This document shows, piece by piece, positions 4,081 to 25,120 of a stretch of 45,703 nucleotides of DNA. The notes under the pieces were generated by a model that saw only the letters and a program-made list of their open reading frames with translations, had not been told where the DNA came from and searched no databases. The stretch's first letter is position 1. Each line of letters opens with the position of its first letter. The translations under genes were made by a program, and so were the position numbers. Source of the stretch: Ignavibacteria bacterium RIFCSPLOWO2_12_FULL_56_21 (GTDB lineage Bacteria; Bacteroidota; Ignavibacteria; UBA10030); the NCBI GenBank assembly GCA_001802945.1, contig MHAK01000124.1, forward strand, positions 1 to 45,703, in the 5' to 3' direction.

Positions 4081-4084
4081 GTGC

Positions 4085-8584: not shown

Positions 8585-8608
8585 GTCGCGGTTCCCCGTG
8601 CGGGGACG

Positions 8609-9097
8609 TCAGGAGGCGGAACGACCCGCAAGACTGCGGATGCGTTCGATGATGGATGTCGTAGAGCGGTTGGAGACGAAGTCGACGGTCCGGACATTGC
8701 CGCCATTCTGTTCGACCACGTCTTTCCCCACCACCTTATCGAGTGACCAATCGGACCCTTTGACCAAAACGTCGGGAACGACGGCCTGAATGAGTTCCAA
8801 CGGAGTATCCTCGGAGAATACAGTGACAAAATCGACTGCGCCAAGCGCAGCAACAACCGCTGCACGATCATCCTGGGAAACGATCGGACGACCCGGACCT
8901 TTCAGCCGCCGGACCGAATCATCGGAATTGACACCGACAACGAGTACATCCCCCAGAGCCTTGGACTGAGCGAGATAATCGATATGGCCCCGGTGAAGTA
9001 TATCAAAACAACCGTTCGTGAACACTACTCGCTTTCGGTCTGCCTTGAGGCGACCCCGGGTCTGGACAAGCTGTTCCCGTGTGACGACGATTCCCAT
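8609..9097 (-). CDS. rfaE2: D-glycero-beta-D-manno-heptose 1-phosphate adenylyltransferase
   Basis: 162 residues, the stand-alone cytidylyltransferase-like half of HldE (RfaE domain II, also called HldC). It transfers AMP from ATP to heptose-1-phosphate to make ADP-heptose for the LPS inner core. The nucleotidyltransferase signature NGCFDILHRGHIDYL (containing HxGH) is at about residues 29-43, and the C-terminal RSTTSIIERI region is typical. It starts 2 bp after rfaE1. In Escherichia coli the two activities are fused in one protein; here they are split into two adjacent genes, as in many other phyla. Confidence 0.95.
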   Translation of the reverse strand: MGIVVTREQLVQTRGRLKADRKRVVFTNGCFDILHRGHIDYLAQSKALGDVLVVGVNSDDSVRRLKGPGRPIVSQDDRAAVVAALGAVDFVTVFSEDTPLELIQAVVPDVLVKGSDWSLDKVVGKDVVEQNGGNVRTVDFVSNRSTTSIIERIRSLAGRSAS

Positions 9098-9099
9098 GG

Positions 9100-10107
9100 T
9101 CAGCCTTCGCCTCGTCCGTCGGTCTGCTCGGCGGTCGTGAAAAGTTCGGATTTGTCGACCGGAACAATGCCAACTTCACCGCATACAATCCCCCCGGCAA
9201 TATTTGCGAGCGCGGCTGCCTCCTTGACGGTAGCTCCGGCGGCAAGAGCGACGGTCAGTGTGGACACCACGGTGTCTCCTGCACCCGATACGTCGGCCAC
9301 ATGTCTGGCATGTGTCGCCACTCGACTCACTTCGCCGGAATGCTCGAACAATGCCATGCCTTGCTCACCCATGGTCAGGAGCACGTTGTCCGCCTTGAGC
9401 CTTTCCAAGAGAATTTGTCCTGCCTTCTCGACCTGTGCAGGATCCGTAAGTCGGAAGCCAAGCGCCTCTTCGGTCTCCTTGCGGTTTGGCTTGAAGACCG
9501 TCACTCCAGCATATGCGAAGAAGTTGTTCGATTTTGGGTCAACGGTTATGATCTTCTTCCTCTTGCGGGCAAGCCGGATGGCGTTGTCCACAAGCGGTCC
9601 GGTCAATACACCCTTGTTGTAGTCTTCGAGAATAATTCCGTCCAGACGGTCAAGTTCTTTCGAAAGGAATTCGAGTAATCTTCTCTGCACGTCGTCGTCG
9701 ATATCGCGCTTGACTTCTTCGTCGATCCGCACGACATGCTGATGATGCGCAATTACACGTGTCTTGATCGTCGTCGGTCGAGTGGTATCGGTCAACACAC
9801 CGTCTGTAGGGAACTTGAGCTGCTCCATCGTCTTGCGGAGCAGAGTCCCTCCGGCGTCTGAGCCCACGACGCCGATAAGAATCGGTGTTCCGCCGAGAGC
9901 GGCAATGTTGTTCGCGACATTTGCCGCGCCGCCAAGCCTGGAGGATGTTTCATCCACTTCGACGATGGGGACGGGTGCTTCCGGGGAGATTCGGGTCACC
10001 GTTCCCCAATAGTAGCGGTCAAGCATCAAGTCGCCTATGACGGCAATGCGCTTTCCGTCAAACGCCTTAAACAAGGCCTTGAGCCTAGAAGAGTCAAAGC
10101 TTACCAA
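9100..10107 (-). CDS. rfaE1: D-glycero-beta-D-manno-heptose-7-phosphate kinase
   Basis: 335 residues, PfkB/ribokinase-fold kinase (RfaE domain I, HldA-like) that phosphorylates heptose-7-phosphate at C1 in ADP-heptose synthesis. Visible features are the N-terminal IAVIGDLMLDRYYWG motif, the GGAANVANNIAALG substrate-binding motif, NRKE, and the C-terminal VSGAGDT motif with the catalytic aspartate. The likely start is a TTG at 10107: an AAAGG Shine-Dalgarno sequence lies 7 bases upstream, and a promoter-like pair of boxes lies a little further up. It is the first gene of the minus-strand cluster rfaE1-rfaE2-tamB-rnr-peptidase. Confidence 0.94.
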   Translation of the reverse strand: MVSFDSSRLKALFKAFDGKRIAVIGDLMLDRYYWGTVTRISPEAPVPIVEVDETSSRLGGAANVANNIAALGGTPILIGVVGSDAGGTLLRKTMEQLKFPTDGVLTDTTRPTTIKTRVIAHHQHVVRIDEEVKRDIDDDVQRRLLEFLSKELDRLDGIILEDYNKGVLTGPLVDNAIRLARKRKKIITVDPKSNNFFAYAGVTVFKPNRKETEEALGFRLTDPAQVEKAGQILLERLKADNVLLTMGEQGMALFEHSGEVSRVATHARHVADVSGAGDTVVSTLTVALAAGATVKEAAALANIAGGIVCGEVGIVPVDKSELFTTAEQTDGRGEG

Positions 10108-10142
10108 TATCGTGCCTTTGAGAAAGTCCGCAAATTCTTCAA

Positions 10143-10171
10143 AATATAGGGATAAATGAAGGGAGGAGCAA
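10143..10171 (-). promoter_or_regulatory. Candidate sigma70-type promoter for the rfaE1 operon
   Basis: On the minus strand there is a TTGCTC -35 box (10166-10171), a 17-bp spacer and a TATATT -10 box (10143-10148). Transcription would begin near 10136 and leave a leader of about 30 bases before the TTG start of rfaE1. The -10 box is close to consensus and the -35 keeps TTG. It is inferred from sequence only; FCB promoters often differ from the E. coli consensus. Confidence 0.5.
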
Positions 10172-10509
10172 CCAAAGGATAGTATTCAAAGGACATCATA
10201 AATCCATTGTGCAGGACATAAAATAGTGCTCCCAATCCTTGTCCTCCGGGCACTATACGAGCTCACCGGGGAATGTAGTCGCTCTCTTTGTGTGATGAAG
10301 CTTGCGAAATGAATTCGAGCCAATCGAACGAATGTCCGTGTATGATGGCGCACTGGCTTTCGGCACGCGCGTGACCTGCAGAACAGGACTAACACGTTCG
10401 GCCGTCCGTTCGCTTTGGAGGTATGTGATCCGATCGTCATGATCTTGCACAGAAGGAGTCGCGGCCATCGGTCGTGATGGAATTGTGCAATACAAGGGAT
10501 GAGACCAAT
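10172..10509. other. Intergenic region without a recognised gene; contains one inverted repeat
   Basis: No convincing coding region is seen on either strand between the rfaE1 promoter and the small ORF at 10510. The one clear structure is an inverted repeat with arms 10223-10231 and 10248-10256 (ATAGTGCTC / GGGCACTAT, one G-T pair, 16-base loop). Read on the minus strand it is followed by TTTTATG, so it could be a weak terminator for leftward transcription. The rest is unassigned. The long minus-strand open frame across this region also runs antisense through the tRNA and has no recognisable domain. Confidence 0.5.
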
Positions 10510-10629
10510 ATGTTGACGGCGAATAACGCTGAGAATTGGCGAAGTAAGGCTGAAACTGCCGTATGGGGAACAATCTTCCTTGTAATTCAGGCCTTTGGTG
10601 CGTATCTTACAGTCTCGGCGAACAATTAG
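10510..10629 (+). CDS. Candidate small single-pass membrane peptide (39 aa)
   Basis: A 39-codon ORF starting at ATG 10510. It has a polar N-terminus with NAENWRSKAE, a roughly 20-residue hydrophobic stretch (AVWGTIFLVIQAFGAYLTV) flanked by charged or polar residues, and a TAG stop at 10627-10629. The stop lies inside a strong hairpin followed by a T-tract, as expected for a short monocistronic gene. An in-frame ATG at 10477 would give 50 residues. Neither start has a well-placed Shine-Dalgarno; AAGGG lies 11 bases before 10510. No family is recognised. The case rests on the membrane-like profile and the terminator; chance remains possible. Confidence 0.4.
   Translation: MLTANNAENWRSKAETAVWGTIFLVIQAFGAYLTVSANN
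10580..10608 (+). promoter_or_regulatory. Candidate promoter upstream of tRNA-Leu
   Basis: TTGTAA (10580-10585) and TATCTT (10603-10608) are separated by 17 bases. Predicted transcription would begin around 10615, at the foot of the hairpin just before the tRNA. The boxes lie inside the candidate small ORF, so one of the two readings may be coincidental. Confidence 0.35.
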
Positions 10630-10651
10630 TCTCGCCGAGATTTCTGTTTTT
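10613..10651 (+). terminator. Rho-independent terminator-like hairpin abutting tRNA-Leu
   Basis: A perfect 9-bp stem (TCTCGGCGA at 10613-10621, TCGCCGAGA at 10632-10640), a 10-base loop and a T-rich tail (TTTCTGTTTTT, 10641-10651). It ends one base before the first base of the tRNA at 10652. It would terminate the small ORF upstream. Alternatively it is a leader structure of the tRNA transcript. Confidence 0.75.
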
Positions 10652-10738
10652 GCCCAGGTGGTGGAATTGGCAGACACACTAGATTCAGGGTCTAGCGCTT
10701 GCAAGAGCATGCAGGTTCGACTCCTGTCCTGGGCACCA
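10652..10738 (+). tRNA. tRNA-Leu(CAG), CCA encoded
   Basis: An 87-base class II tRNA. The acceptor stem GCCCAGG (10652-10658) pairs with CCTGGGC (10728-10734), followed by A and an encoded CCA (10736-10738). The D-arm holds TGGTGGAATTGGCAGACAC, as usual for tRNA-Leu. The anticodon stem CTAGA/TCTAG encloses loop TTCAGGG with anticodon CAG, which reads CUG. A long variable arm and a GGTTCGACTCC T-arm are present. Confidence 0.97.
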
Positions 10739-10800
10739 AACAGCGAAGAATGCAGATGATACACAGTGGATTTGAAAGGCTGCAGAGAGCGATGGCCAAG

Positions 10801-10828
10801 AAGGCGGCTTCGGAAGAGGCCGCCTTTT
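10801..10828 (+). terminator. Rho-independent terminator after tRNA-Leu
   Basis: The stem AAGGCGGC (10801-10808) pairs with GCCGCCTT (10819-10826), with a 10-base loop and a TTTTGTG tail. It lies about 60 bases after the tRNA 3' end and is the natural end of the tRNA transcript. The remaining 130 bases before the next gene show nothing else. Confidence 0.75.
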
Positions 10829-10959
10829 GTGTTCCGTTATGGAGAACTCTACCAACCTCCGCGCGATTCTCAAGGGGGAATCTGCATGATGTTCTTGAAA
10901 GCTTGCGCTTCAATTCGCACAGCTGTCCCACTATGTTGAACACCACCCGGACGAACCTC

Positions 10960-11445
10960 ATGAACACAAGCCCGATTTGTCGCAGCCATATCTTCCTCAT
11001 CTGTACAACCCTGGTAGCCATCGGTGTCATGACCGGATGTACGAAGACCCAATATGCTGTCGTCAGACCCCAGAGTGTTCCTGTAGATTGGAACATCAAA
11101 ATGGAACGCTCCCCCGGAATCATGCGGTGCACAATCGACGACAAGGCAGTCATTGAGGCCTCCATTTCCATCGCCGCAGCCAACAGAGTCACAAGCGAAT
11201 TCGGCGTCATGATGGTTGAAGATACGACACGACATATCGATGAAACCATCACGTATCAAGGAAAAGCAGTACGCATGTTGGGATATTGCGAAATGGTTGA
11301 CGCAGGTCTCCAAGGTTGGCAATTTTACTATGAAATATCGATCTATGTGGAAGGCGAGAAAGTTGCGGTATTCGATTTTGACAAACAATTTGACACGAGG
11401 AAGAAGAACCCCGGATATTGGTCTCGGATAGGGGTCGATGAGTGA
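10960..11445 (+). CDS. Hypothetical lipoprotein
   Basis: About 161 residues from ATG 10960. A type II signal peptide (residues 1-27) ends in a lipobox-like VMTGC, so the protein is probably acylated and held in the envelope. The mature part is mostly beta-like with no family I recognise; it has several aromatic residues in the second half (WQFYYEISIYVEG). An in-frame ATG at 10933 would add nine residues. The frame is open further upstream through the tRNA, which is not coding. It is followed, with an alternative start overlap at 11438, by a second lipoprotein, so the two may be co-transcribed. Function unknown. Confidence 0.6.
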   Translation: MNTSPICRSHIFLICTTLVAIGVMTGCTKTQYAVVRPQSVPVDWNIKMERSPGIMRCTIDDKAVIEASISIAAANRVTSEFGVMMVEDTTRHIDETITYQGKAVRMLGYCEMVDAGLQGWQFYYEISIYVEGEKVAVFDFDKQFDTRKKNPGYWSRIGVDE

Positions 11446-11491
11446 CGGGCGAAGACTCCTCCAATGCACACACTATGAAAAGGCACACGAA

Positions 11492-12109
11492 ATGACCGCG
11501 CAATCAAAGCAGCTCATGATCGCTGTCGCGACTGCAATAATTGCAGGTGCGTTGTTACTGGATTGCAGCCCTGCGACATCTTCCAGCATTTCGCTGGAAT
11601 CTTCGCCTGAAATGTCGCGCTATCCGTACCGTGTGATAGTCTTCATCCCTATCTCCCATCCCCAACTCAAAGATCAAGAATGCGACATCCTAAGCGCTGC
11701 AACGGAGCAAACACTACAACGCCTCAGACCATCGAGCAGAGTACTTATGGTCGACAAAATCTCTTGGTTGACCTCGGGCGACATACGAAACCTGGGTTAC
11801 TTCGCACGTAATCCTAAAGTCGTCGATAGCTTGACGGCAAAGACGCTGGCCAATATAGTTGATCGGGAACATGCCGATGCGATTCTGAGCGGAGAGCTTG
11901 CCTCGATCATATTTCAACCGGGAGATCGAGCTTCCACAAAAACAGTCCTTCGATATCAGATGGTATCGCTTCCCGAAATGCGCTCGTTGTGGACCCTATC
12001 TGGTGAAGCCAAAATGACAAAATCTGTCTTGGAATCGTCGGATCCGCCGTCGATCTACGAATGCGCAAGAATCGCCCATGAGAAGATACTTCAGTCTCTG
12101 CCTCTCTAG
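11492..12109 (+). CDS. Hypothetical lipoprotein
   Basis: About 205 residues from ATG 11492, with a hydrophobic signal followed by a lipobox-like LLLDC at about residue 24. The mature domain begins with a beta strand (YRVIVFIPI) and later has the pattern ADAILSGELASIIF. This loosely recalls the ABC-type fold of CsgG/LpoB-like envelope lipoproteins, but no diagnostic motif is visible and I do not assign a function. An alternative start (ATG 11438) would overlap the stop of the upstream lipoprotein by a few bases and put an implausible polar extension before the signal. A short inverted repeat (CCTCTC/GAGAGG, 12101-12117) spans the stop codon. Confidence 0.65.
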   Translation: MTAQSKQLMIAVATAIIAGALLLDCSPATSSSISLESSPEMSRYPYRVIVFIPISHPQLKDQECDILSAATEQTLQRLRPSSRVLMVDKISWLTSGDIRNLGYFARNPKVVDSLTAKTLANIVDREHADAILSGELASIIFQPGDRASTKTVLRYQMVSLPEMRSLWTLSGEAKMTKSVLESSDPPSIYECARIAHEKILQSLPL

Positions 12110-12525: not shown

Positions 12526-14052
12526 GTGTTGAGTCGCTCCTTCCCACGCATAGTTTTTCTCGCGGGATGTATCTGCGCCCCCCTCTCAGCTCAATGGTAT
12601 GTCTCTCCCGTTGGAAACGACTCGAACCCCGGCACTATCACCCAACCATTCTTGACGATCCCCAAAGCCCATTCAGTCGCTCTCGCAGGCGATACGATCT
12701 ACGTTCGGGGCGGAACGCATGAGCTGGGGGCTACCATCACACTGTCAAAGAGCGGGACCTCTGCTGAGATGTATCATCTGATCGCATATCCGGGTGAACG
12801 TCCGCTCCTCGATTTCTCCTCCATGGCCACGAGCAGCACCAATAGAGGAATTCGCGTCAGCGGAAGCTATTGGCGCTTGTACGGACTCGACGTACAGGGG
12901 GCGGGAGACAATGGGATGAACATGTCGGGTTCGAACAATATCGTGGAGTACTGTTCCTTCTTCGAAAACCGTGACAGCGGTGTGCAGCTCGACAACGGCG
13001 CTTCATCGAACCATTTCATCAACTCTGACTCGTATTTCAATACGGACCCGCTGTTCGAAAACGCCGATGGATTCGCTCCGAAGCTCACGGTCGGAAGCGG
13101 GAACCGGTTCACCGGATGCAGGGCTTGGCAGAACGCGGATGACGGTTGGGACGGTTACCTTCGCGGGACAAATGACGTGACGACGACCCTCGATCAGTGC
13201 TGGTCGTTCATGAACGGATACTTGAAAGACGGAACCCCAAGCCTTCCTAATGGCGATGGGAACGGATTCAAGATGGGGGGAAGCGACGACAAGCTGCTGC
13301 GCCACAACATGGTCCTCATTCGATGTCTTGCGTTCGACAACAGGGTGAAGGGGTTCGACCAAAACAACAATCGCGGAAGCATGTCGTTGATCAACTGTAC
13401 ATCGTACGGGAACGGAACGAACTACAGCATCCCCGGGCCGATCGACAGCGGGATGGTTGCTACACTGACAAATTGTGCTGTTTTCGGAAGCACGGGCACG
13501 ATCATGGACTCTGCCACTCTCTCGACGAACAGTTGGATGAGCCCGTTCGTGGTCACCTCATCGGATTTTGCAAGCTTCGACACGACCGGCATGCGCGGTC
13601 CCCGAAATCCCGATGGCAGCCTTCCGCGGCTTCCATTCATGCGCCTCGCGGACGGGAGCGATCTCATCGACGCGGGAACCTCGGTCTCCCTGCCGTTCTT
13701 CGGGACGGGCATAGACATCGGATCGTTTGAATTCGATCCCAGCACGTTCGTCGCATCGAGTGGCGACATTCCGGACTATTTTGCGGTACTGCAGAACTAT
13801 CCGAACCCGTTCAATCCCGTCACACACATCGACTACGCCATCCCTTCGGACGGCATCGTGACATTCCAGATTCACGATGTCATGGGAAGGCTGCTTCTTA
13901 CCAGCTCCAACATGCACGAACAAGCCGGTCGATTCTCCTTGCGTTGGGAGGGCTCCGATACCGAAGGGCATGCCCTGCCGACTGGGGTCTACTTTGCCAC
14001 GCTAAGGTTCGGCCGCGCCGCAAGGACGCTGAAACTCTTCCTTCTCAAATGA
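12526..14052 (+). CDS. Pectate lyase, polysaccharide lyase family 9, T9SS-exported
   Basis: 508 residues. PL9 enzymes cleave polygalacturonate by beta-elimination, using calcium. Layout: signal peptide (1-22), right-handed parallel beta-helix (about 25-390), then a T9SS sorting domain (about 420-508) starting with NYPNPFNPVT. The PL9 catalytic set is intact: D181 in NADGFAPK, the calcium cluster D205/D206/D209 in DDGWD, and the probable base K249 in GNGFKMGG. The 24-residue spacing between the first two groups matches Pel9A. The start is GTG 12526 or, better placed 6 bases after AGGAG, TTG 12529. The stop overlaps the receptor start as ATGA. It is the first gene of the locus and is likely displayed on the cell surface. 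Confidence 0.92.
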   Translation: MLSRSFPRIVFLAGCICAPLSAQWYVSPVGNDSNPGTITQPFLTIPKAHSVALAGDTIYVRGGTHELGATITLSKSGTSAEMYHLIAYPGERPLLDFSSMATSSTNRGIRVSGSYWRLYGLDVQGAGDNGMNMSGSNNIVEYCSFFENRDSGVQLDNGASSNHFINSDSYFNTDPLFENADGFAPKLTVGSGNRFTGCRAWQNADDGWDGYLRGTNDVTTTLDQCWSFMNGYLKDGTPSLPNGDGNGFKMGGSDDKLLRHNMVLIRCLAFDNRVKGFDQNNNRGSMSLINCTSYGNGTNYSIPGPIDSGMVATLTNCAVFGSTGTIMDSATLSTNSWMSPFVVTSSDFASFDTTGMRGPRNPDGSLPRLPFMRLADGSDLIDAGTSVSLPFFGTGIDIGSFEFDPSTFVASSGDIPDYFAVLQNYPNPFNPVTHIDYAIPSDGIVTFQIHDVMGRLLLTSSNMHEQAGRFSLRWEGSDTEGHALPTGVYFATLRFGRAARTLKLFLLK

Positions 14053-17006
14053 ACCTCCGGTCGTCACGGAAACCGTCATTGTTCATTGATCTGCTTTGCG
14101 GATTGATGATTCTGTCCGCTTTCATGACCTCCGTCTTCGGTCAAACGGCGGCTAAGATTTCCGGGGTAGTACGGGATGCAGCTGCCGGCGAACCGCTCAT
14201 CGGCGCAAACGTCGTGATCGTTGGAACCACCATGGGGGCATCAACCAATCTCGAGGGAGAGTTTTTCATCCTGAACGTCCCCCCGGGGAAGTACGACGTA
14301 CAGGCTTCGTTCCTCGGGTATCAGCGGGTTTTGCAGCAGGGTGTTATCGCCAACAGCGGCAGGACGACCACGCTCTTTTTCACGCTGCATGAAGTGAGCA
14401 TTGAGATGTCGGTTGTTATTATCGCGGCGACCAGGCCGGATGTGGAGTTGGAAAAGACTTCCACGAGTGAAATCATTCGGACAGACGATATTCGGCACAT
14501 CGCAGGAATTCGGGATGTCGGCGACGCCCTCGGACTTGCCGCGGACATTACAGACGGTCATTTTCGCGGCGGGCGTTCCGGCGAAGAACTCTACACGCTG
14601 CAGGGGATGGGAATTACGAACCCCCTCGACAACTCCAGCGCCTTCCTGCCGATCATGAGCGCGGTGGAAGAGGTTGAGGTGATCACGAGCGGATTCGGGG
14701 CTCAGTACGGAAATGCCCAATCCGGAGTCGTGAACATCTCGATGAAAGAGGGAAAATCCGACCGGTGGCGGACCCGGGTCGAATCCCGGATGCGATCACC
14801 CGGCCGCAAACACTTCGGCCCCAGCGTCTACGACCCCGCCTCGAACCCGTATCTGGCGTTCCTTCTTAACACATCGGTCTGGAAAGGGGACAACGACGCC
14901 AATCGCTACTACACGCAGATGGCCGACCAGTTCTCGAGCTATTTCGGACTCGACACAACCTTGCGCGCACAGGTAGCCTATTCCCTCTGGAGATATCAGA
15001 CCAAGCGCGACCTGGGTTTGACCTATGGAGAAGAGTTCGACAACTCGTTCGAGGCCGCGACAGGCGGTCCAATCGACGACGACAAGCGGATGTTCCTGGC
15101 GATGCGGTCGAACACGATCTGGCCGGTGTTTCCGACCGAGCGACCGAACGTTGAAGAACAAATCATGGGCAACATCGTCACCGACATCGGTTCGGAGACG
15201 TCGCTCCGTCTGAGCGGTGCGTACTCCCGGGAGTTCAGCAATATTTTTCCGAGTGCCAACAATCTGGGTTATTACAACTGGATGTGGGACCGGCTCCTCG
15301 CCATGCAGCAGCGCAAGACGACAAACACGCAGGTTGGACTGAGATTCACGCATGCGCTGAGCCAAAGCACTTTTTACGAAGTGAAACTGAACACGCTGCT
15401 TACCCACACGGTTCAGGGGTCTTCCGTCGCGCCGGATTATCTTCCTGATGACTTGCTCGGACTCCCAGAGTCGAATTTCAATCAGATGATCGCCGGGGTA
15501 CGAACCGGACCGGACAGATTCACGTACGGGAATGGTCCGGACGCCTTCCGGGATGAAAACACGCGGACGATTTCACTCGAGGCAGCCTTCACGAGTCAAA
15601 TCACGAATTCGCATTTGTTGAATGCGGGCATTCAGGTCAGTGCGTTTGGACTCGACATCCGAAACCGTGCGAACACGAGGAGCAACGACGGGATGACCCT
15701 CACGATGTATGAGGCGAACCCCTACGAACTGGGAGCGTACGTCCAGGATAAGATGGAATTTGAGGGAATGATCGCGAACGTCGGTTTGCGTCTAGACCTC
15801 TGGTCGCAGAACACAGACTATTATGAAGACCTGTTCTCCCCTTACCGATATTTCACGTCCGACACGACCTGGGGAAGGGACAAAGATCTTGCCCCGCGCG
15901 ATCGAACTCCCGTTATCGGCCGCCCTCAGCCCAGGGTCGGTGTTTCTTTTCCCGTGACGACATCGACGGTCTTTCACCTGAACTACGGCTCGTTTCTCCA
16001 GCGCCCCTCCTTCCAATACATCGCTGCATCATCGTATAGTCAGGGCTCCGGTTTGCCCAACACGTTCGGCAATCCACGACTCCAACCCCAAACGACGAAC
16101 AGCTATGACGTCGGGATCACTCAGGGATTGGGGGAAGGGTTCACGCTCGACGTCAGCGGATACTACAAGGATGTGAAGAATCTCATCCAACGTGCCTCGT
16201 ATACTGACCGGGGCGGTGAGACGTACAACACCTATGTGAACCGGGACTATGCCGACATCCGCGGCTTTCGACTTTCGTTGAACAAGCGCAGGGGAATCTT
16301 CATCGGGACGGTGAACTATCAGTTCAGCGTTGCCACGGGGAAAAGCAGCACTCCCTTCAACGCCTCGCCGTCATACCGCGAGGAGCCCAATACCGGCGCG
16401 ATCATAACAGACCTCCAAAATGTGCCGATCAAGGATATTCTCCTTGATTTCGACCGGACACACAACCTCATCGTCAATCTTGGCTTCATCACTCCGGAAG
16501 ATTGGGGGCCGAGCGTACGCCATGTGTACGATTGGAGCTTTGGACTCCTCGTAGGACTCTTCACCGATTGGACGCCGACGGCTCTGACGTATACTCCTCT
16601 CGGAGACATCGCGTTGTCGACCAATTCGTTCGTACGAAGCGGACGACCGTATACATATTCCATCGGAGTGAAACTTATCAACAACAAGAGGAGCCCGTGG
16701 GAAACCGGAACGAATGTCAAAGTCTCCAAGCGAATCTCGGGGGTTGTGGGGACCAGCCTGTCGGTGTATTGTGAGATTTTCAATGTGTTCAACGACCGCA
16801 TCCTCAATTATTCCTACATTTTTGACCAGTCGAACACGAATTCGGAATTCAACATCACAAGGTACGAGTTAAGCCCGATCAACGATCCCAACGGCCTTCG
16901 CTTTCTCAATGCCTCAAACGCCGCACCATTCCTGGTCGATCAGTCCTTTCTGATCTACGACAATGCGCCGCGCTCATACAATGTGGGGATCACCGTTGAT
17001 TTCTGA
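14049..17006 (+). CDS. SusC-like TonB-dependent outer-membrane receptor
   Basis: 985 residues from ATG 14049, which overlaps the PL9 stop by 4 bp. A signal peptide (1-33) is followed by a carboxypeptidase-regulatory-like domain (about 35-115, with GVVRDAAAGEPLIGANV), a TonB plug (about 130-250, with YGNAQSGVVNISMKEG) and a long 22-strand-type barrel ending in a C-terminal F (VGITVDF). Such receptors import large or scarce ligands using TonB energy; here the substrate is inferred to be pectin oligosaccharides from the neighbours. Unlike Bacteroides SusC genes, it is not followed by a SusD gene. The frame is open upstream to 13944 inside the PL9 gene, but only the ATG at 14049 gives a proper signal peptide. 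Confidence 0.9.
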   Translation: MNLRSSRKPSLFIDLLCGLMILSAFMTSVFGQTAAKISGVVRDAAAGEPLIGANVVIVGTTMGASTNLEGEFFILNVPPGKYDVQASFLGYQRVLQQGVIANSGRTTTLFFTLHEVSIEMSVVIIAATRPDVELEKTSTSEIIRTDDIRHIAGIRDVGDALGLAADITDGHFRGGRSGEELYTLQGMGITNPLDNSSAFLPIMSAVEEVEVITSGFGAQYGNAQSGVVNISMKEGKSDRWRTRVESRMRSPGRKHFGPSVYDPASNPYLAFLLNTSVWKGDNDANRYYTQMADQFSSYFGLDTTLRAQVAYSLWRYQTKRDLGLTYGEEFDNSFEAATGGPIDDDKRMFLAMRSNTIWPVFPTERPNVEEQIMGNIVTDIGSETSLRLSGAYSREFSNIFPSANNLGYYNWMWDRLLAMQQRKTTNTQVGLRFTHALSQSTFYEVKLNTLLTHTVQGSSVAPDYLPDDLLGLPESNFNQMIAGVRTGPDRFTYGNGPDAFRDENTRTISLEAAFTSQITNSHLLNAGIQVSAFGLDIRNRANTRSNDGMTLTMYEANPYELGAYVQDKMEFEGMIANVGLRLDLWSQNTDYYEDLFSPYRYFTSDTTWGRDKDLAPRDRTPVIGRPQPRVGVSFPVTTSTVFHLNYGSFLQRPSFQYIAASSYSQGSGLPNTFGNPRLQPQTTNSYDVGITQGLGEGFTLDVSGYYKDVKNLIQRASYTDRGGETYNTYVNRDYADIRGFRLSLNKRRGIFIGTVNYQFSVATGKSSTPFNASPSYREEPNTGAIITDLQNVPIKDILLDFDRTHNLIVNLGFITPEDWGPSVRHVYDWSFGLLVGLFTDWTPTALTYTPLGDIALSTNSFVRSGRPYTYSIGVKLINNKRSPWETGTNVKVSKRISGVVGTSLSVYCEIFNVFNDRILNYSYIFDQSNTNSEFNITRYELSPINDPNGLRFLNASNAAPFLVDQSFLIYDNAPRSYNVGITVDF

Positions 17007-19224
17007 CCGGATTCTCGTTCTGGCAACGGCCGTGATCGTAGGCTTCGCAGCTTCGACCGATGCCCTCCGTTCACAGGCTCGCCGATACGAGATTCATCGC
17101 CGGGGAATGCTGCACCAAACGGTCTACAACACCGGCGAACTCGGTCGGCCGTATGACGACGGGAATACCGGAAGCACGCCGAATATTCCGTCGTTTGAAT
17201 GGCCTGCCCGCTCCGCGATGTTTGTCGACGGAACTCCGTACAACGGTCAGTATAACTCTTTCGGGGCGGGTTTTTACATCTTCGCCACGAAGAACCTGGA
17301 TTCGGCAAATCGATACACTGATATGTGCGGGGCTGTCTCGGACAACGACGGGAACGCCGGGGTTGTGGAAGGAGTGTTCAGCGAGCCGATCTCGATCACG
17401 AGGATGGAAAATTACCCCGTGCTTGCGGATGGTCGTCTCAACCCAATGTATGATCCCGACGAGGCGGAAGAAGTCATCGTATCGAAATGGCGGGCCCTGC
17501 AGACAAACGTGATCGTCACGAGAACAAGCCGGGCATGGAGCAATCCGGACTACGATGATTTCATCATATACGAATACGTGCTCGAAAACTCATCTTCCGA
17601 TACGTTGACCGACATGATCGTCGCCTGGGGATATTCCCTTGCGGCATCGCTGTTCGGCAACGAACGCAAATTCAACCGTTGGTCCGAAGCGGATTTCCGG
17701 GCGCGCGACCAGTTCGCCCGCTACGACCTGACCAGATATCTGTCGTACAACCACGACCGGACCGGCAGCCCGGACGACCGGTATTTCAGTGTGTGGGCTC
17801 AATCGGGCAGATTCGGCGGCGGACTGAATTCTCCCCAAGCCGTGGGCATCTTCCCGTTGCACTACGACCGGGCTCACCTGGCTCTCCGGGGTCAAACGAA
17901 CGCATTTGTCGCCCGATCGGATTTCCGGTATGTGTGGGACACTGAACTCAAAATGAAGCAGCCGTACATCAACCGGTATGAGAACGGGAATCTCTATCCC
18001 TCAAAGATCGGCAACTACGGATTCCTCGACTGTGTATCCCAGCGCAAAACAAGTCCGGTCTCAGGCATCGGGAACGACCCGGTGAATTTCCCCGCGTATT
18101 GGATCGGCCGGTCAAAGCCGTCGTGGACCATCGGTTCTCGTCAACCAGTTGGACATATTTACGGGTTTGGACCGTACACGCTAAGACCCGGACAGAAGAT
18201 GACTATCGTATTGGCGGAGGTTGCAGGGTTCGGCGCGGGCACTGCAGAGGACAGTGTTTTCAAGGACATCGGCGGCGGAGCGGGTAGCGACGGTAACGAT
18301 CCGGATCCCGGGATGCATCCCGTGCCGAGCCACTACGCAGAGATTCAGTATCCGGAGGCTGTCACTCCGAACGGCCCATCGCCGGTGATGGGCAGCAAAT
18401 ACCTGAGTATGTACCCGCTGCCCGCCTACGTGAACTCCAATGTCATCACCATTCGTGACGTCGCAGACCGCGCAATCCAGATGTATACCGGCGGTGTGTT
18501 GGTGAAACACGATACAACTCAATTCAAGCCGGAGAATACACCTTCGACAGGCGTGCTTCAGGCGCCGATCCCCTTCCCCGCCCCGGCGATCCGCGTCGAA
18601 AACACTCTCTCTTCCAGGAACAAGATCATGTGGAAGTCGTACGCCGAATCCTTCACTGCGACCAGACTGCGAGCACCACTGAGCCATTACGAGGTCATTC
18701 GGGCAGATCACCCATTGGACCGATGGAAGGAGATCGATAGCGTCGGCATTCAGGATCCCCGGTTTTACACCTCGCAGGACTCCACGTACATGGTTTCGGA
18801 CAACAGCAGTGCACTTCTTGAGGCGTACTACTACGCGGTCGTATCTGTCGATGCGCTCGGAGGTCGGAGCGGCATGACGAATATGACGCTGCACGAAACG
18901 CAATTGCCCGCCGCACCCACCATGGACAAGGTGTATGTGGTACCGAATCCCTTGATCGTTTCCTCCGGTTTCACGGGCGCTTCACCTTCCGGGGATATCA
19001 ACGATCGTATCGGATTTTTCGGACTGCCAAAGCGTGCAACGATACGGATCTACTCCTACAGCGGCCAGTTGATCAATACGATAGAACATGATGTTGACAA
19101 CTACACAGCTGCCTGGTATCAAGTGACACGGAACAGCCAGTTGCTTGCTTCTGGAGTGTATTTCTTCATCGTCGACGACGACCTGGGCAACAGACGCCAC
19201 GGAAAATTCGTCGTCATTCATTGA
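16981..19224 (+). CDS. Large exported protein with FnIII-like region and T9SS-like C-terminus; function unknown
   Basis: 747 residues from ATG 16981, overlapping the receptor end by 26 bp; a TTG at 16996 is a possible alternative. A signal peptide occupies about residues 1-36. The long N-terminal and central part (about 40-510) has many aromatic residues and no domain I recognise. Residues about 525-645 resemble a fibronectin type III fold (KIMWKSY ... YYYAVVSVDALGGRSG). The last 95 residues (VYVVPNPL ... SGVYFFIVDDD ... GKFVVIH) look like a T9SS type A sorting domain, though NPFNP is degenerate. It sits exactly where SusD would in a classic pair, so a ligand-capture role alongside the receptor is possible but unproven. 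Confidence 0.75.
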   Translation: MWGSPLISDRILVLATAVIVGFAASTDALRSQARRYEIHRRGMLHQTVYNTGELGRPYDDGNTGSTPNIPSFEWPARSAMFVDGTPYNGQYNSFGAGFYIFATKNLDSANRYTDMCGAVSDNDGNAGVVEGVFSEPISITRMENYPVLADGRLNPMYDPDEAEEVIVSKWRALQTNVIVTRTSRAWSNPDYDDFIIYEYVLENSSSDTLTDMIVAWGYSLAASLFGNERKFNRWSEADFRARDQFARYDLTRYLSYNHDRTGSPDDRYFSVWAQSGRFGGGLNSPQAVGIFPLHYDRAHLALRGQTNAFVARSDFRYVWDTELKMKQPYINRYENGNLYPSKIGNYGFLDCVSQRKTSPVSGIGNDPVNFPAYWIGRSKPSWTIGSRQPVGHIYGFGPYTLRPGQKMTIVLAEVAGFGAGTAEDSVFKDIGGGAGSDGNDPDPGMHPVPSHYAEIQYPEAVTPNGPSPVMGSKYLSMYPLPAYVNSNVITIRDVADRAIQMYTGGVLVKHDTTQFKPENTPSTGVLQAPIPFPAPAIRVENTLSSRNKIMWKSYAESFTATRLRAPLSHYEVIRADHPLDRWKEIDSVGIQDPRFYTSQDSTYMVSDNSSALLEAYYYAVVSVDALGGRSGMTNMTLHETQLPAAPTMDKVYVVPNPLIVSSGFTGASPSGDINDRIGFFGLPKRATIRIYSYSGQLINTIEHDVDNYTAAWYQVTRNSQLLASGVYFFIVDDDLGNRRHGKFVVIH

Positions 19225-19229
19225 CTACC

Positions 19230-20267
19230 ATGTATTCTGTGCGAACGATATCGCGGGCTCATGTGATCGTGCTTGTCATGGCGCTGGTCGCGTTTCCGAC
19301 GGCGGCTCAGAAGGTAGGCACCACGTCCATGCAATTCCTCAAGGTCATGCCCATCGCAAGGGCCGCCGCAATGGGTGAGGCCTATGCCGCACTCGCGAAC
19401 GGGGCAGACGCCGCCTTCTGGAATCCGGCAGGTCTGGCCTCTACCACCGGCTTCGAACTTTCCACAACATACATCGACTGGCTGTTCGACACCCGGCAAG
19501 GAGCTCTGGCCGGTGCTTTGTCGCTAGGCAGTTGGGGATCTGCGGGAGTTCAGGTCCAGTACGTCGACTACGGAGTGTTCGAAGAGGCGAGGGCAGACCT
19601 CGCCACTCTCACGCAAACGCCATATCCGGGACTTACGGGCAGGCAGTTCCGACCGTTCACGATGTTGGTTGGGGTAAGCTTCGCCCGAAGTCTTACGACG
19701 AAATTCTCCACAGGCATGAGCGTCAAGTTCGCCCACGAAACACTGTATCGGCAAAGCAGTGTTGCCATCGTGAACTCCCAGGGGATGACAGAGACGGTGA
19801 ATACGTATGCAAACGGGGTGCTGTTTGATTTCGGACTCCAATACCTGACCGGATTCCGAACCGTTCGCATTGGCGCCACAGTTCAGAACTTCGGTGCATC
19901 TCTTCAATACGCAAAGGAGTCGAGTCCGGCTCCCCTCCTCTTCCGGCTCGGCATCGCAGCGGAACTTGCAGGGGCGAACAGTCTGCTCCTTCCCGATGAA
20001 GAAGGCCGGCTGACCGCGGCGTTCGACATCTTCCAGCCAAATGACTACGGCCAGCAGATGCACGCCGGCTTCGAATATGATTTCGCGGGAACCGTCGCCG
20101 TCAGAGCGGGCTATAAGTTCAATTACGATGTCGAAGGCCTCACGCTGGGAGGCGGAATCCGGCATGACATCGGCGACCTGATCTTGTCCGTCGATTATGC
20201 GTACGGCGCAATGGGCGAATTCCTTGGAATGTCACATCGATTCAGCGTTGGAGTGATCCACCAATGA
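19230..20267 (+). CDS. PorV/PorQ-family outer-membrane beta-barrel
   Basis: 345 residues. A signal peptide (1-26) is followed by the family hallmark ARAAAMGEAYAAL ... AAFWNPAGL (about residues 43-70), then alternating amphipathic strands and a C-terminal FSVGVIHQ. PorV and PorQ are FadL-like 14-strand barrels; PorV shuttles T9SS cargo between the SprA translocon and the PorU attachment complex. The start is ATG 19230; a TTG at 19221 overlaps the upstream stop and would add three residues. Its place between two T9SS-type cargo genes and beside a receptor suggests a dedicated export or anchoring role, which is an inference. Confidence 0.8.
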   Translation: MYSVRTISRAHVIVLVMALVAFPTAAQKVGTTSMQFLKVMPIARAAAMGEAYAALANGADAAFWNPAGLASTTGFELSTTYIDWLFDTRQGALAGALSLGSWGSAGVQVQYVDYGVFEEARADLATLTQTPYPGLTGRQFRPFTMLVGVSFARSLTTKFSTGMSVKFAHETLYRQSSVAIVNSQGMTETVNTYANGVLFDFGLQYLTGFRTVRIGATVQNFGASLQYAKESSPAPLLFRLGIAAELAGANSLLLPDEEGRLTAAFDIFQPNDYGQQMHAGFEYDFAGTVAVRAGYKFNYDVEGLTLGGGIRHDIGDLILSVDYAYGAMGEFLGMSHRFSVGVIHQ

Positions 20268-21757
20268 AAACCCGCCTGCACTTGCGGCTCGATATCTTGT
20301 CGATCGTTGCGGCGATGTTCTGGAATGGTGGAAATGTCTATGCCCAGGGGTACGGTTCCCCTTTGACGATCCAGGGGCTGAGCCGCCTCTCCGTCCATTC
20401 TGCCGCCGCCTCCATGGGAGGTATTTCCACCGGCCGCACGGGCGAGGCATCATCGATGTTCACGAACCCCACTTCCTTGCGAGGGCTCGAAGGAATTCAG
20501 GTCTCGGTTGGCGGTTTTTCCATCGATGAACGGCAGCAACAAGATCAGCAATGGTTTCCGATGCGGAGGTTCCCGACGTTCAGCCTGATGATGGAAGGAC
20601 TTCTGGACAGCATTCCGGCTCCCGACTACACGGAAAGTCCCGACGAAGGATTCGGGCCTGAAGATTCGATCCCCCGGCCGTTTGATTCCATACGGCCCAA
20701 CTGGGCACGCTCCAGTCATCGCCGATTGCCTACGGAGCTTCTCGTTGCAGCACCCTTCGAGCTGGGAGGCTTCAAAGTCGCGGCAGGACTCGGAATGGTG
20801 CAGTATGCCTCGCTCGACCATGCGTATCAGAACAACAACGTCCTTTCCCCTTCGATCGGAAGCCAGCGTCCGACCGGCGTGCCCTTGCCGCTCAACGGAG
20901 AGGAAATTCCCGTCCTGTGGTCGCAGGCCCTCCAGTCACGAGAAGGGGCGATCTACGGATACGGCGGTGCGGTTTCAGTTTCTGTTACTGAAAACCTCGC
21001 AGTCGGCATGAGCGGATCGTATCTCCGTGGCAAGACCGATGACTTCGAAACAACGACCGTGCGAGGGCGGATCAGGTTCGGGAACAACAGCGGCGTTTAT
21101 TACTACAAACTCGACTCGATTTATTCGGTGCTCCAATCGGTCGGAACTTCGACCTTCACAGGATACGACTTTGGACTTGGTGCCGCCTATGCAGGACGCA
21201 CTGTCACACTTAGTCTGTCGATCAGACCTCCAACGAGCATCGAACGGTCAGCCCGCAGTACCCGCACTCATGATACGACGGGCGGCGTTCGTACGTCGAA
21301 CCTCTCCATAAGAGACAGGATCACCTTCCCATGGAGAGGTACGGCCGGAATCTCTCTCGCCGTGAGAGAGGATTTCCGACTCGCCTTCGAGTACGATTAT
21401 CGTCCGCTGATGTCAGCAGAGTACGAGGATCCCTCGGGCACCGTCACAAACCCCTGGCTCTCCGCGAACTCATTCCGAGTCGGAGGTGAATATTCGCCGG
21501 TATCGTGGGCCGTCCTCCGGGCCGGTTATCGGTCCGAGTCAGAGGTCTTCGAATCGGAAGGAAACCCGCTCATCGGCGACCCTGTCAGGTATTCCGTGTT
21601 TACAGCGGGGATTGGCTTGCGTGTCTTCGGAGCGAGGCTAAATCTGGGTTATGAATTTTCTTCCATCACGTATGAAGATCTTTGGCAGACGAATGCGAAT
21701 CTGAACAGCACGACGCATGAGAGGATCATCGCCGATGTCACATATACTCTTTTCTAG
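20264..21757 (+). CDS. Outer-membrane beta-barrel, PorV/FadL-like
   Basis: 497 residues, overlapping the previous gene by 4 bp (ATGA). Signal peptide about 1-27. The N-terminal block AAASMGGISTGRTGEASSMFTNPTSL is a diverged form of the MGxA...NPAxL pattern seen in the preceding protein. The rest alternates aromatic and small residues as in barrels and ends in a membrane-type strand (ADVTYTLF). It is therefore a second, larger PorV/FadL-like barrel in tandem. It closes the first block of the pectin locus. A transport or secretion role is likely, but the substrate is unknown. Confidence 0.7.
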   Translation: MKTRLHLRLDILSIVAAMFWNGGNVYAQGYGSPLTIQGLSRLSVHSAAASMGGISTGRTGEASSMFTNPTSLRGLEGIQVSVGGFSIDERQQQDQQWFPMRRFPTFSLMMEGLLDSIPAPDYTESPDEGFGPEDSIPRPFDSIRPNWARSSHRRLPTELLVAAPFELGGFKVAAGLGMVQYASLDHAYQNNNVLSPSIGSQRPTGVPLPLNGEEIPVLWSQALQSREGAIYGYGGAVSVSVTENLAVGMSGSYLRGKTDDFETTTVRGRIRFGNNSGVYYYKLDSIYSVLQSVGTSTFTGYDFGLGAAYAGRTVTLSLSIRPPTSIERSARSTRTHDTTGGVRTSNLSIRDRITFPWRGTAGISLAVREDFRLAFEYDYRPLMSAEYEDPSGTVTNPWLSANSFRVGGEYSPVSWAVLRAGYRSESEVFESEGNPLIGDPVRYSVFTAGIGLRVFGARLNLGYEFSSITYEDLWQTNANLNSTTHERIIADVTYTLF

Positions 21758-21879: not shown

Positions 21880-23706
21880 ATGAGTACTTGGAATCGCACC
21901 TTCGCGGTCGCCATGTTGATTGCACGTACAGCAGGTTTGCTGTCGGCGCAATCTGCAAACGACTATCGGACCGCCGCAAGCGGCGTTTGGTCCACAACGT
22001 CCACGTGGGAGAGATATTCCGGGACGCAATGGGAAGCGGCGACGACTTCCCCCGATTCGGGAGCAGGGCAAATCACCGTTCTGGCGGGCCACAGCGTTTC
22101 GATCACGAGCGCTCTCGCGGTCGATTCCCTACAAATACTCGGGAACGGAAGCGTTACTATCGCCGCTGGAGTGACCGTATCGGTCCCGATCAATAACGGA
22201 TTGAATGGAATCGACGTCGATACGCTGGGGACTTTGACAGTGAACGGCACGATTGTCTGTCAAGGCCGCGTATCCGGATCGATCGGAGCCATAGTCTTCG
22301 CCAACGGCAGTATGTATGACCATGCCCGAAACGGAGGGGACGCGCCGAGAGCCGTCTGGCAAACCGGGTCTACGATGAAACTGACGGGAGTGACAGGCAA
22401 TTCCCCCTCAAACATGAATCAGGACTTCTACAATCTCGTCATTGACTGCGCGGGATTGACCGCAAACCTGAATTTGGGAATGAGCGGGAATACGATACAG
22501 GGAGACATTACCGTCCTGCGGACCGGAGCCAGCAACCGGTATTATCTGACCAGTCCAGCAGCTTTCGTCTACCCAATCACAGTCATGGGCAATATCTACG
22601 TTCGCGGCGGTGTCTTTTCCACGAACGGCTCCAGCAGTGCGGGTCACATTATTGTGCACACGTACGGCAATATCATCGTCACCGCAGGAAACTTCGGATG
22701 CAGTAGAGGGAGCGGGACGTCGGTCTCCTGGTTTCTGTATGGCGACACGATGTCCATTTCGAACGCTACACTCCATAACTCGACGGGTTCGCCGGACAGG
22801 GTGCAAAAATTCATCTTCTCGAAACAGGGAACAACACAGTTAAGATTCTCGAACGTCACCTACGGAACCGGCGGTACAAGTCCGATCACGCTTCAGGTCA
22901 GCAAAGGAACGACTCTCGATATCGACACTTCGCACCTCGCCAGCAACAGTACCGGCAGCTTCATCCTTGACAGCGGGGCAGTTCTCGTCTCTGCACACAA
23001 CGGCCCCGGTAACGAGGGGAACATCGAATATCTCGCAGATCTGGGGGGTGGAAATTCTTTTGTGAACATTAACGCCACAACCGGGACAGGCAAAACGACT
23101 GTCAAGGCGTTCAAGGGACCGCACCCGAACATGTACGACCCCTTGAAGGGGCTCCAACGATATTGGACGGTCACGGCAGACGCTGGAATCACGGAAGCCA
23201 CGATGACCTTCTATTATTACGACCTGGACCCTGTCGGCACAGAAGTGAGGGGAACGGAAACAGTGTATAAGGCGCTTCGCTACGGAGGAGTCGGTAGCGG
23301 ATGGAGTACAGTCACGGGGAGCGTTGTCGACGATTTCTTTGATTTTGTCACCGCAACCGCCATCACCAGCGTCGCCGCCGACTGGACCGTAGGAGAAGCC
23401 GCTTCTGTGGGCGTGGCATCGCCCAATGGGCCTGCAATACCCGATGTGTTTTCTGTCGACCAGAATTACCCGAATCCGTTCAACCCGAGCACGTCCATCC
23501 GGTATCACATCCCGGAAGCGACTCTCGTCACGATTCGCCTGTTCGACGTCCTTGGGCGGGAAGTCGGTCTTCTCCTGAACGAAGAACACGAGGCCGGTTC
23601 TTATACAACACAATGGAACGCCGCGGGGTTTTCGAGTGGAATGTACTATTGCAGCGTCATGGCCGGCGACGATGTTAAGATCATTAAGCTTGTTCTCTTG
23701 AAGTAA
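21880..23706 (+). CDS. T9SS-exported protein of unknown function in the pectin locus
   Basis: 608 residues, with AAAGGGA about 8 bases before the ATG. A signal peptide (about 1-24) is followed by a region beginning SGVWSTTSTWERYSG, a motif common at the start of large secreted FCB proteins. A long, threonine/serine/glycine-rich beta-solenoid-like stretch follows (about 50-510), and a T9SS sorting domain (NYPNPFNPST, about 528-608) ends in KIIKLVLLK. I see no catalytic signature. Being placed between the outer-membrane block and the PL1/GH28/GH105 enzymes, it could be a pectin-binding or degrading surface protein; that is inference from context only. Confidence 0.75.
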   Translation: MSTWNRTFAVAMLIARTAGLLSAQSANDYRTAASGVWSTTSTWERYSGTQWEAATTSPDSGAGQITVLAGHSVSITSALAVDSLQILGNGSVTIAAGVTVSVPINNGLNGIDVDTLGTLTVNGTIVCQGRVSGSIGAIVFANGSMYDHARNGGDAPRAVWQTGSTMKLTGVTGNSPSNMNQDFYNLVIDCAGLTANLNLGMSGNTIQGDITVLRTGASNRYYLTSPAAFVYPITVMGNIYVRGGVFSTNGSSSAGHIIVHTYGNIIVTAGNFGCSRGSGTSVSWFLYGDTMSISNATLHNSTGSPDRVQKFIFSKQGTTQLRFSNVTYGTGGTSPITLQVSKGTTLDIDTSHLASNSTGSFILDSGAVLVSAHNGPGNEGNIEYLADLGGGNSFVNINATTGTGKTTVKAFKGPHPNMYDPLKGLQRYWTVTADAGITEATMTFYYYDLDPVGTEVRGTETVYKALRYGGVGSGWSTVTGSVVDDFFDFVTATAITSVAADWTVGEAASVGVASPNGPAIPDVFSVDQNYPNPFNPSTSIRYHIPEATLVTIRLFDVLGREVGLLLNEEHEAGSYTTQWNAAGFSSGMYYCSVMAGDDVKIIKLVLLK

Positions 23707-23755
23707 CGAAGACATGCACTCAGAACAATATCCCGAACGCCCGGAAACGAGGGAG

Positions 23756-25120
23756 ATGTCGATCCGCATGGGTCTGTCACTTTGTGCCGTTCTCTTTCTC
23801 CTTGCGGATCATCCCCTCGTTTCCCAGGTTCTCGCTTTTCCCGGAGCGGATGGCTTCGGGAGATTCACAACGGGCGGGCGCGGCGGCGTGGTCTGTGAAG
23901 TGAACAACCTCAACGATGACGGTCCAGGCAGCTTCCGGGCCGCCATCCAAACGAAGGGCACGCGGACGATCGTCTTTAGAGTGTCGGGCACTCTCTCGCT
24001 CGAGTCGGACCTGGTCATAAGGCACGGAGACTTGACGATCGCGGGCGAGACCGCTCCCGGTGGAGGCATTTGTGTGCGCAATTATCCGACGATCATCGAG
24101 GCTGACAACGTGATCATTCGCTTCATGCGGTTCAGGCTCGGTGACGAGAAACGACAGGCGGCGGATGCCATGAGTGCCATAGGGCGGCGGGACATCATTG
24201 TCGATCACTGTTCCTTCAGCTGGGGCATGGACGAGGTGGCGACGTTCTATAACAATGAGAACTTCACCTTGCAGTGGTCGATCGTGTCTGAAAGCCTCGA
24301 CAGCTCATACCATCCGAAGGGCAAACACGGCTATGGCGGCATCTGGGGCGGTTACCGGGCCACGTTCCATCATAACCTGCTCGCACATCACTCAAGCCGA
24401 AACCCCCGGTTTCAGGGGGGACGATGGGAAGGTTGGGAAAAGAAAGAAGAGGTCGACTTCAGGTACAACGTGGTATTCAACTGGGGATTCGAATGTGCGT
24501 ATGGCGGCGAGTCCGGCAAACAGAACATCGTGGCGAATTACTTCAAACCCGGGCCGGCCTCGGTCCATCCCCGGCGCTTTCTCTCCCCCAGTGATGGGAA
24601 TGGCCGGTGGTACATCGCCGAGAATTTTGTGTCCGGGTACCCGGAGATCACGCAGGACAACACTCTCGGAATCGAGAAGAAATACGGAGAGCAACTTCTG
24701 GTCTCCTCTCCGTTCATTTCCGAGATGAGCGCGACCGAGACTGCGGGGCTCGCGTATGATGCGGTACTCCGGTGTGCGGGGGCCACTCTCCCCCGCCGGG
24801 ACTCGGTCGACGTCCGGATCCTTGCCGAGGTTGCGACCGGGATTCCGACCTACGGCGATGCCTCTTACGCCCTTGATCATCCCAAGTTGTCACGTTCGAA
24901 ACCTCTCGGGATCATCAATTCTCAGTCAACCGTCGGCGGATGGCCTCGCCTTTCCTCCGAACCTCCTCCTGCGGATTCGGACCGTGACGGTATCCCGGAT
25001 TCCTGGGAACAACGACACGGACTCGACCCCGCAAATGCGGATGACGGCCGTGTGATCACGCGGAGCGGATACACGAACCTCGAACTGTACCTTCACGATC
25101 TGGCATCTTCAAGACCATGA
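23756..25120 (+). CDS. Pectate lyase, polysaccharide lyase family 1
   Basis: 454 residues from ATG 23756. A signal peptide ends near VSQVLA, and the mature enzyme starts with AFPGADGFGRFTTGGRGG, the usual start of Bacteroidota-type PL1 lyases. Family motifs include NDDGPGSFRAAI, TIAGETAPGGGICVRNYPT, DHCSFSWGMDE and the SRNPRF segment with the catalytic arginine. A C-terminal DSDRDGIPDSWE motif is a calcium-binding thrombospondin type 3-like repeat. There is no T9SS domain, so it is probably periplasmic or otherwise retained. An ATG at 23714 would add 14 polar residues before the signal. The stop overlaps GH28 by 4 bp. It cleaves polygalacturonate by beta-elimination. Confidence 0.9.
   Translation: MSIRMGLSLCAVLFLLADHPLVSQVLAFPGADGFGRFTTGGRGGVVCEVNNLNDDGPGSFRAAIQTKGTRTIVFRVSGTLSLESDLVIRHGDLTIAGETAPGGGICVRNYPTIIEADNVIIRFMRFRLGDEKRQAADAMSAIGRRDIIVDHCSFSWGMDEVATFYNNENFTLQWSIVSESLDSSYHPKGKHGYGGIWGGYRATFHHNLLAHHSSRNPRFQGGRWEGWEKKEEVDFRYNVVFNWGFECAYGGESGKQNIVANYFKPGPASVHPRRFLSPSDGNGRWYIAENFVSGYPEITQDNTLGIEKKYGEQLLVSSPFISEMSATETAGLAYDAVLRCAGATLPRRDSVDVRILAEVATGIPTYGDASYALDHPKLSRSKPLGIINSQSTVGGWPRLSSEPPPADSDRDGIPDSWEQRHGLDPANADDGRVITRSGYTNLELYLHDLASSRP

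Follow-up and report, generated by a model that had tools for sequence, protein, structure and literature searches.

Paired SusC and SusD genes are the usual marker by which polysaccharide loci are found, and a locus of the Ignavibacteria bacterium RIFCSPLOWO2_12_FULL_56_21 raises the question of what might capture glycan where a TonB-dependent receptor (TBDR) is encoded beside a partner of another kind. The window analysed here is the whole of contig MHAK01000124.1 (45,703 nucleotides; C124 of its own genome, an assembly of 3.36 Mb in 138 contigs that is 95% complete), on the forward strand of which four successive genes encode a TBDR (14049–17006), an exported protein of 747 residues that we call P747 (16981–19224), an outer-membrane barrel of the PorV/PorQ family (19221–20267) and a second outer-membrane barrel of FadL/BamG fold (20264–21757). 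The answer we think probable is that of a SusCD-like uptake complex for polyuronate oligosaccharides, with a receptor exported by the type IX secretion system (T9SS) and held by the PorV-type barrel. The link to polyuronates is much firmer than the mechanism of anchoring, and the four-gene module itself is real: widespread, substrate-linked and no local oddity.

Conservation and substrate context of the module

The reading frames confirm the initial annotation of four overlapping genes behind a T9SS-exported lyase, with overlaps of between 4 and 44 bases. The TBDR opens with an ATG at 14049, inside a lyase gene that ends at 14052, and P747 with an ATG at 16981 (747 amino acids), or alternatively at 16963 (753 amino acids), before ending at 19224; the overlaps lyase/TBDR, TBDR/P747, P747/PorV and PorV/second barrel measure 4, 26 (or 44), 4 and 4 bases, respectively. 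The TBDR carries a TonB-receptor barrel and a CarboxypepD_reg-like N-domain (PF00593, 78 bits; PF13715, 64 bits); its earlier description as ‘SusC-like’ finds no support at the level of family, as it scores 65 bits against the SusC/RagA model TIGR04056, for which the NCBIfam cut-off is 368. An apparent TBDR–P747 fusion in one relative (G089, an open frame of 1687 amino acids) was set aside, a stop codon separating the two.

Searching 294 genomes of the class with P747 gave matches in 68 at E ≤ 1e-15, including matches to the C-terminal domain (CTD) only, and 29 loci with long matches were fetched (L050–L078). A TBDR gene lies just upstream of P747 in 28 of the 29, PorV is present in all of them and the start of the second barrel in 26; at the single locus lacking the TBDR two P747 genes stand in tandem (L068), and the second barrel is missing from L061, L068 and L070, all of which are cut short downstream. 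A 24-row P747 alignment run against named genomes, with the best 80 of 134 relatives kept (L079–L158), extends the survey to Ignavibacteriota, Rhodothermota, KSB1, Calditrichota and Neomarinimicrobiota (with titles naming Ignavibacteria, Rhodothermales, Roseithermus sacchariphilus, KSB1, Calditrichota and Neomarinimicrobiota); the two sets share part of their genomes and cannot count as independent. Once loci cut by the locus end are excluded (1, 3 and 12, respectively), the TBDR precedes P747 in 79/79 assessable cases, PorV follows it in 77/77 and the second barrel is present in 68/68, with median gaps between successive genes of 16, 9 and 9 bases in loci of P747 homologues. As gene order is kept in every assessable locus of the 80, the arrangement is more than chance. 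The initial annotation had held that its proposal would fall were the barrels and the 747-residue protein unlinked to receptors in related genomes; we find the four genes tightly linked across phyla, and no such separation. At G150:C267:611-4986, P747 genes stand in tandem, two within one module.

Substrate labels rest on seed proteins of two kinds, pectin enzymes and lyases of PL17, PL6, PL5-like or heparinase type (polysaccharide lyase, PL, numbers that we presume to apply). Of the 80 loci, 65 are well flanked, with 3 kb or more beyond the module; among these, 14 hold pectin enzymes, 43 alginate/PL6-type lyases, none both and 8 neither; the labelled total of 57/65 compares with 1/20 for background stretches of 20 kb, hand-chosen from large contigs of genomes in the class search (Fisher p 9e-12, uncorrected for kinship), and with 0/19 for regions in the window's own genome that surround further PorV or CTD-protein genes. 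The remaining 15 loci, with shorter flanks, divide into 2 pectin, 2 alginate/PL6 and 11 neither. Neighbours in the alginate group include a PL17 oligoalginate lyase, a KduD-type dehydrogenase and genes for tripartite ATP-independent periplasmic (TRAP) transport. In a 78-row P747 tree the label switches once between pectin and alginate, the pectin side forming an 18-row branch (SH-aLRT 100; 15 rows labelled pectin, 3 unlabelled) with members in Ignavibacteriota, Rhodothermota and KSB1; the pectin clade is, in other words, one that crosses phyla. FastTree trees of all four genes show one label change each, indicating that substrate follows the module's own phylogeny.

Predicted structure of P747 and the two barrels

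Our AlphaFold model of P747 (76 sequences; mean pLDDT 90.4, pTM 0.90), taken together with a match to its C-terminus, predicts a signal peptide followed by a beta-supersandwich, a fibronectin type III (FnIII)-like domain and a PorZ-like T9SS CTD. Residues ~32–534 align, by VIA-align, with the N-domains of carbohydrate enzymes: dextran dextrinase (9ju0; Z 20.5 over 264 residues at 3.0 Å), a GH116 enzyme (5npf; Z 18.2, 285 residues, 3.9 Å) and cellobiose phosphorylase (8ho7; Z 17.7, 270 residues, 3.6 Å). We take the matched N-domain to be a beta-supersandwich, a domain name that Pfam gives in GH94. The P747 profile found no sequence relative in the PDB, and no SusD-type chain occurs among the VIA matches listed, which is not proof that such a fold is absent.

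The C-terminus of P747 matches PorZ (24.8 bits, E 6.7e-6; 24% identity to 5m11 over 130 columns by Foldseek) and scores 18.2 bits against the T9SS type A sorting domain TIGR04183, below its cut-off of 23. The FnIII region and sorting-domain-like end described in the initial annotation are thereby borne out in part, through the many FnIII pairs among the Foldseek matches and the PorZ-like CTD; neither a Pfam FnIII match nor membership of the type A class was found. At the other end of the protein, a lipobox as defined by a simple pattern is missing from 75 of 76 P747 homologues, which sets them apart from the surface lipoproteins of SusCD, and a loose pattern finds glutamine after the signal peptide in 53 of 76; passages of a published study give a signal-peptide Q-value of 77% for Ignavibacterium album (PMC5837995). 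SprA is present in all 36 P747 genomes searched, these being 36 of the 37 with a best P747 match better than 1e-70 (the fragment G267 was omitted).

The description of two tandem PorV/FadL-like barrels was accurate. The first scores 192 bits against the PorV/PorQ family model NF033709 (cut-off 90) and matches the PorV chain 6h3i_F (E 2.9e-4); it falls below the cut-offs of both core equivalogs, PorV (NF033710; 67 bits, cut-off 250) and PorQ (NF033711; 91.7 bits, cut-off 220). The AlphaFold model of the second (pLDDT 91.4) finds its best PDB matches in BamG (9hiv_F) and FadL (3dwo), with 58 bits against the BamG model NF053685 (cut-off 250). For Porphyromonas gingivalis, the parts of PMC5562754 that concern these proteins report that PorV anchors PorU, that PorQ anchors PorZ and that PorV is a shuttle for T9SS substrates, and sections of two accounts of the Bacteroidota β-barrel assembly machinery (BAM) have the surface lipoprotein BamH held by BamG (PMC12611786, PMC12578637). 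By analogy with PorZ on PorQ and BamH on BamG, we infer that a PorV-type barrel may anchor the CTD of P747. Of the two roles offered for the barrels in the initial annotation, export/anchoring or an oligosaccharide port, the former seems to us the likelier for the first barrel, as an anchor or shuttle for this CTD.

Proposed mechanism, related triads and alternatives

In the uptake complex we propose, the four genes would together serve pectin at the window locus and alginate-like polymers in sister clades. P747 would cross the outer membrane via SprA, retain its CTD and be kept at the cell surface by the PorV-type barrel encoded next to it, as reported for PorZ on PorQ; there it may capture oligosaccharides cut by secreted lyases and pass them across for TonB-driven import through the TBDR. 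The second barrel would act much as BamG does for BamH, as a scaffold or a partner in assembly, a port being less likely. The locus is ‘SusD-less’ as originally described, with no Pfam SusD match in P747 and none detected in the window's own genome by PF14322 or PF07980; in a class sample of 119 genomes, 10 (PF14322) and 30 (PF07980) score over the cut-off. A protein that is exported, always accompanied by a receptor, correlated with substrate and predicted to share a sugar-enzyme-type fold is a plausible SusD substitute, as had been suggested.

The scheme would appear to be repeated elsewhere, with different receptor bodies and the same CTD class. The window's own genome holds 16 PorV-family genes over the cut-off and eight triads of TBDR, CTD protein and PorV (C124, the window, with C30, C3, C112, C91, C121, C125 and C62); a ninth candidate (C73) is truncated where its contig begins. 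In two complete genomes from other families, triads occur at 4/8 (G153) and 8/12 PorV regions (G165, 12 of 13 over the cut-off having been fetched), one of these (L232) with an extra open reading frame (ORF) before PorV. A local hidden Markov model (HMM) separates the CTDs of triad partners from the type A C-termini that secreted enzymes carry, and a profile of five such partners aligns with the P747 C-terminus (E 2.7e-20). Homology of their long bodies with P747 was considered and set aside, the profile comparison aligning the C-terminal part only. Genes adjoining the other triads encode GH94 and glycoamylase-family enzymes, ribokinase, or an FGGY kinase with a major facilitator superfamily (MFS) transporter. 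At L035 (G000:C112:1-13000, 2444–11419), genes for GH94 and for a T9SS enzyme of the glycoamylase family come after the triad, which suggests a glucan-specific copy of the chassis; at L040 (G000:C125, 194–7127) a ribokinase over its cut-off comes after it, which suggests ribose or a nucleoside as substrate. In L034 (G000:C131:1-12000) and L228 (G165), from two families, a CTD-class protein comes first, followed by a T9SS protein of type A, an unknown gene, the TBDR and lastly PorV.

A broader proposition, on which we find ourselves evenly divided, is that the Fibrobacteres–Chlorobi–Bacteroidetes (FCB) group possesses a second general TonB-dependent architecture for glycan capture, in which each T9SS-exported receptor sits on a PorV paralogue of its own by means of a CTD that belongs to a distinct class and is probably left uncleaved; an exchangeable body (a supersandwich for polyuronates, others for other substrates) would be mounted on a constant chassis of CTD, PorV and TBDR, which would stand in for SusCD where SusD genes are few.

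Several points weigh against the uptake complex. Contact between its members, CTD retention, binding and transport are all predictions; a supersandwich fold does not prove that P747 binds sugar; and PorV may merely shuttle P747 to the general attachment complex. PL6 also covers enzymes for non-alginate polymers, which qualifies the alginate label; the eight well-flanked loci without a seed enzyme (L092, L094, L112, L143, L145, L148, L150 and L155) and the 3 of 18 pectin-clade rows without a label run counter to a strict association, and the single positive background stretch (L180) carries pectin genes. Given that a SusD_RagB gene is found in 10 of the 36 P747 genomes searched, P747 is not simply a SusD replacement everywhere. 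The triad rule, too, has an exception in L048 (G000:C86:1-12000, 3282–11702), where a TBDR-like gene accompanies two tandem CTD proteins without PorV.

If P747 and the PorV-type barrel were instead an attachment or shuttle unit for the neighbouring lyases, sorting in the manner of PorZ/PorQ, P747 would be no glycan receptor and the TBDR would import alone. PorZ is indeed nearest to the P747 CTD, many neighbours bear type A sorting domains and PorV does shuttle T9SS substrates, as described in part of PMC5562754; we nonetheless regard this as unlikely, for P747 is never without a TBDR where assessable, save in the tandem P747 pair, the CTD class of P747 and the other triad proteins differs by local HMMs from the type A class of the lyases, other triads adjoin ribokinase or FGGY kinase genes, and the P747 body resembles sugar-enzyme domains. 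That same resemblance would allow P747 to act enzymatically at the surface, as a hydrolase or epimerase of sugars that has a supersandwich or ExoMA2-like fold and trims oligosaccharides for the TBDR, and both the Foldseek and VIA matches to the exo-arabinanase ExoMA2 (Z 16.6) and GH94/GH116 enzymes and the many conserved acidic residues of P747 homologues speak for it. The alignments to GH94/GH116-type enzymes, lying within residues 28–678, mostly cover the N-domain, which is presumably non-catalytic, catalysis residing, as we understand it, in an (alpha/alpha)6 barrel; the secondary structure of the P747 model has no counterpart of that barrel, P747 matches no Pfam domain over the cut-off and no enzyme family in Pfam or NCBIfam, and we judge an enzyme improbable. 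That the two barrels are passive oligosaccharide or lipid ports, in a multi-channel uptake unit without a SusD-like lid, is very improbable in spite of the FadL fold of the second, as FadL-type channels carry hydrophobic ligands and PorV and BamG hold surface proteins (according to portions of PMC12611786, PMC12578637 and PMC5562754).

Surrounding genes and relation to known systems

The genes flanking the module in the window, all on the forward strand, are those of a pectin locus. Directly upstream lies a PelN/Pel9-like, T9SS-exported pectate lyase (12526–14052; PF22842, 89.8 bits) with a type A sorting domain over the cut-off (TIGR04183, 25.6 bits). Downstream are a T9SS type A exported protein with no other recognised domain (21880–23706; TIGR04183, 37 bits), which recurs beside pectin-clade modules as the best window match of 16 neighbour ORFs; a PelZ/PL1-like pectate lyase (23714–25120; NF041900, 109 bits, under its cut-off of 840); and two genes (25117–27734) that we take to be GH28-like and GH105-like pectin hydrolases, homologues of which flank pectin-clade modules.

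Our search of open-licence PMC papers, a scope outside which subscription papers and preprints lie, found no description of a TBDR–CTD protein–PorV unit. The 2013 genome paper on Melioribacter roseus records a susCDE operon for starch, pectate lyases and one PL6 gene, and the passages concerned name no pectin or alginate uptake genes (PMC3534657). If a T9SS-anchored receptor that does without SusD is indeed in use in several phyla, glycan loci of those phyla are being overlooked, receptor anchoring becomes a second role of PorV paralogues, and the combination of TBDR, CTD protein and PorV provides a clean signature from which pectin or alginate uptake can be predicted for uncultured lineages. 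A permanent anchoring role of T9SS CTDs beyond the attachment complex would likewise become testable.

Among known systems, the SprB/SprF type of T9SS pairing likewise has a substrate gene followed by its own barrel, differing in its PorP/SprF barrel family and in having no TBDR in the unit. BamG:BamH of the Bacteroidota BAM offers a FadL-fold barrel that carries an extracellular protein, BamG being the best PDB match of our second barrel, although the latter scores below the BamG cut-off and lies in a sugar operon. The PorZ:PorQ and PorU:PorV pairs of the T9SS attachment complex also join a CTD-bearing surface protein to a PorV-family barrel; unlike them, the module is encoded with a TBDR and sugar enzymes and occurs in many copies per genome, and the similarity of P747 to PorZ is restricted to the C-terminal part. 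From SusCD/RagAB of Bacteroidota the module differs in a receptor that scores under the SusC cut-off and in a partner with a predicted beta-supersandwich, a T9SS-like CTD and a barrel of its own in place of a lipobox; it resembles them in having a TBDR gene directly before that of a surface protein, in its residence at polysaccharide loci and in its several copies per genome.
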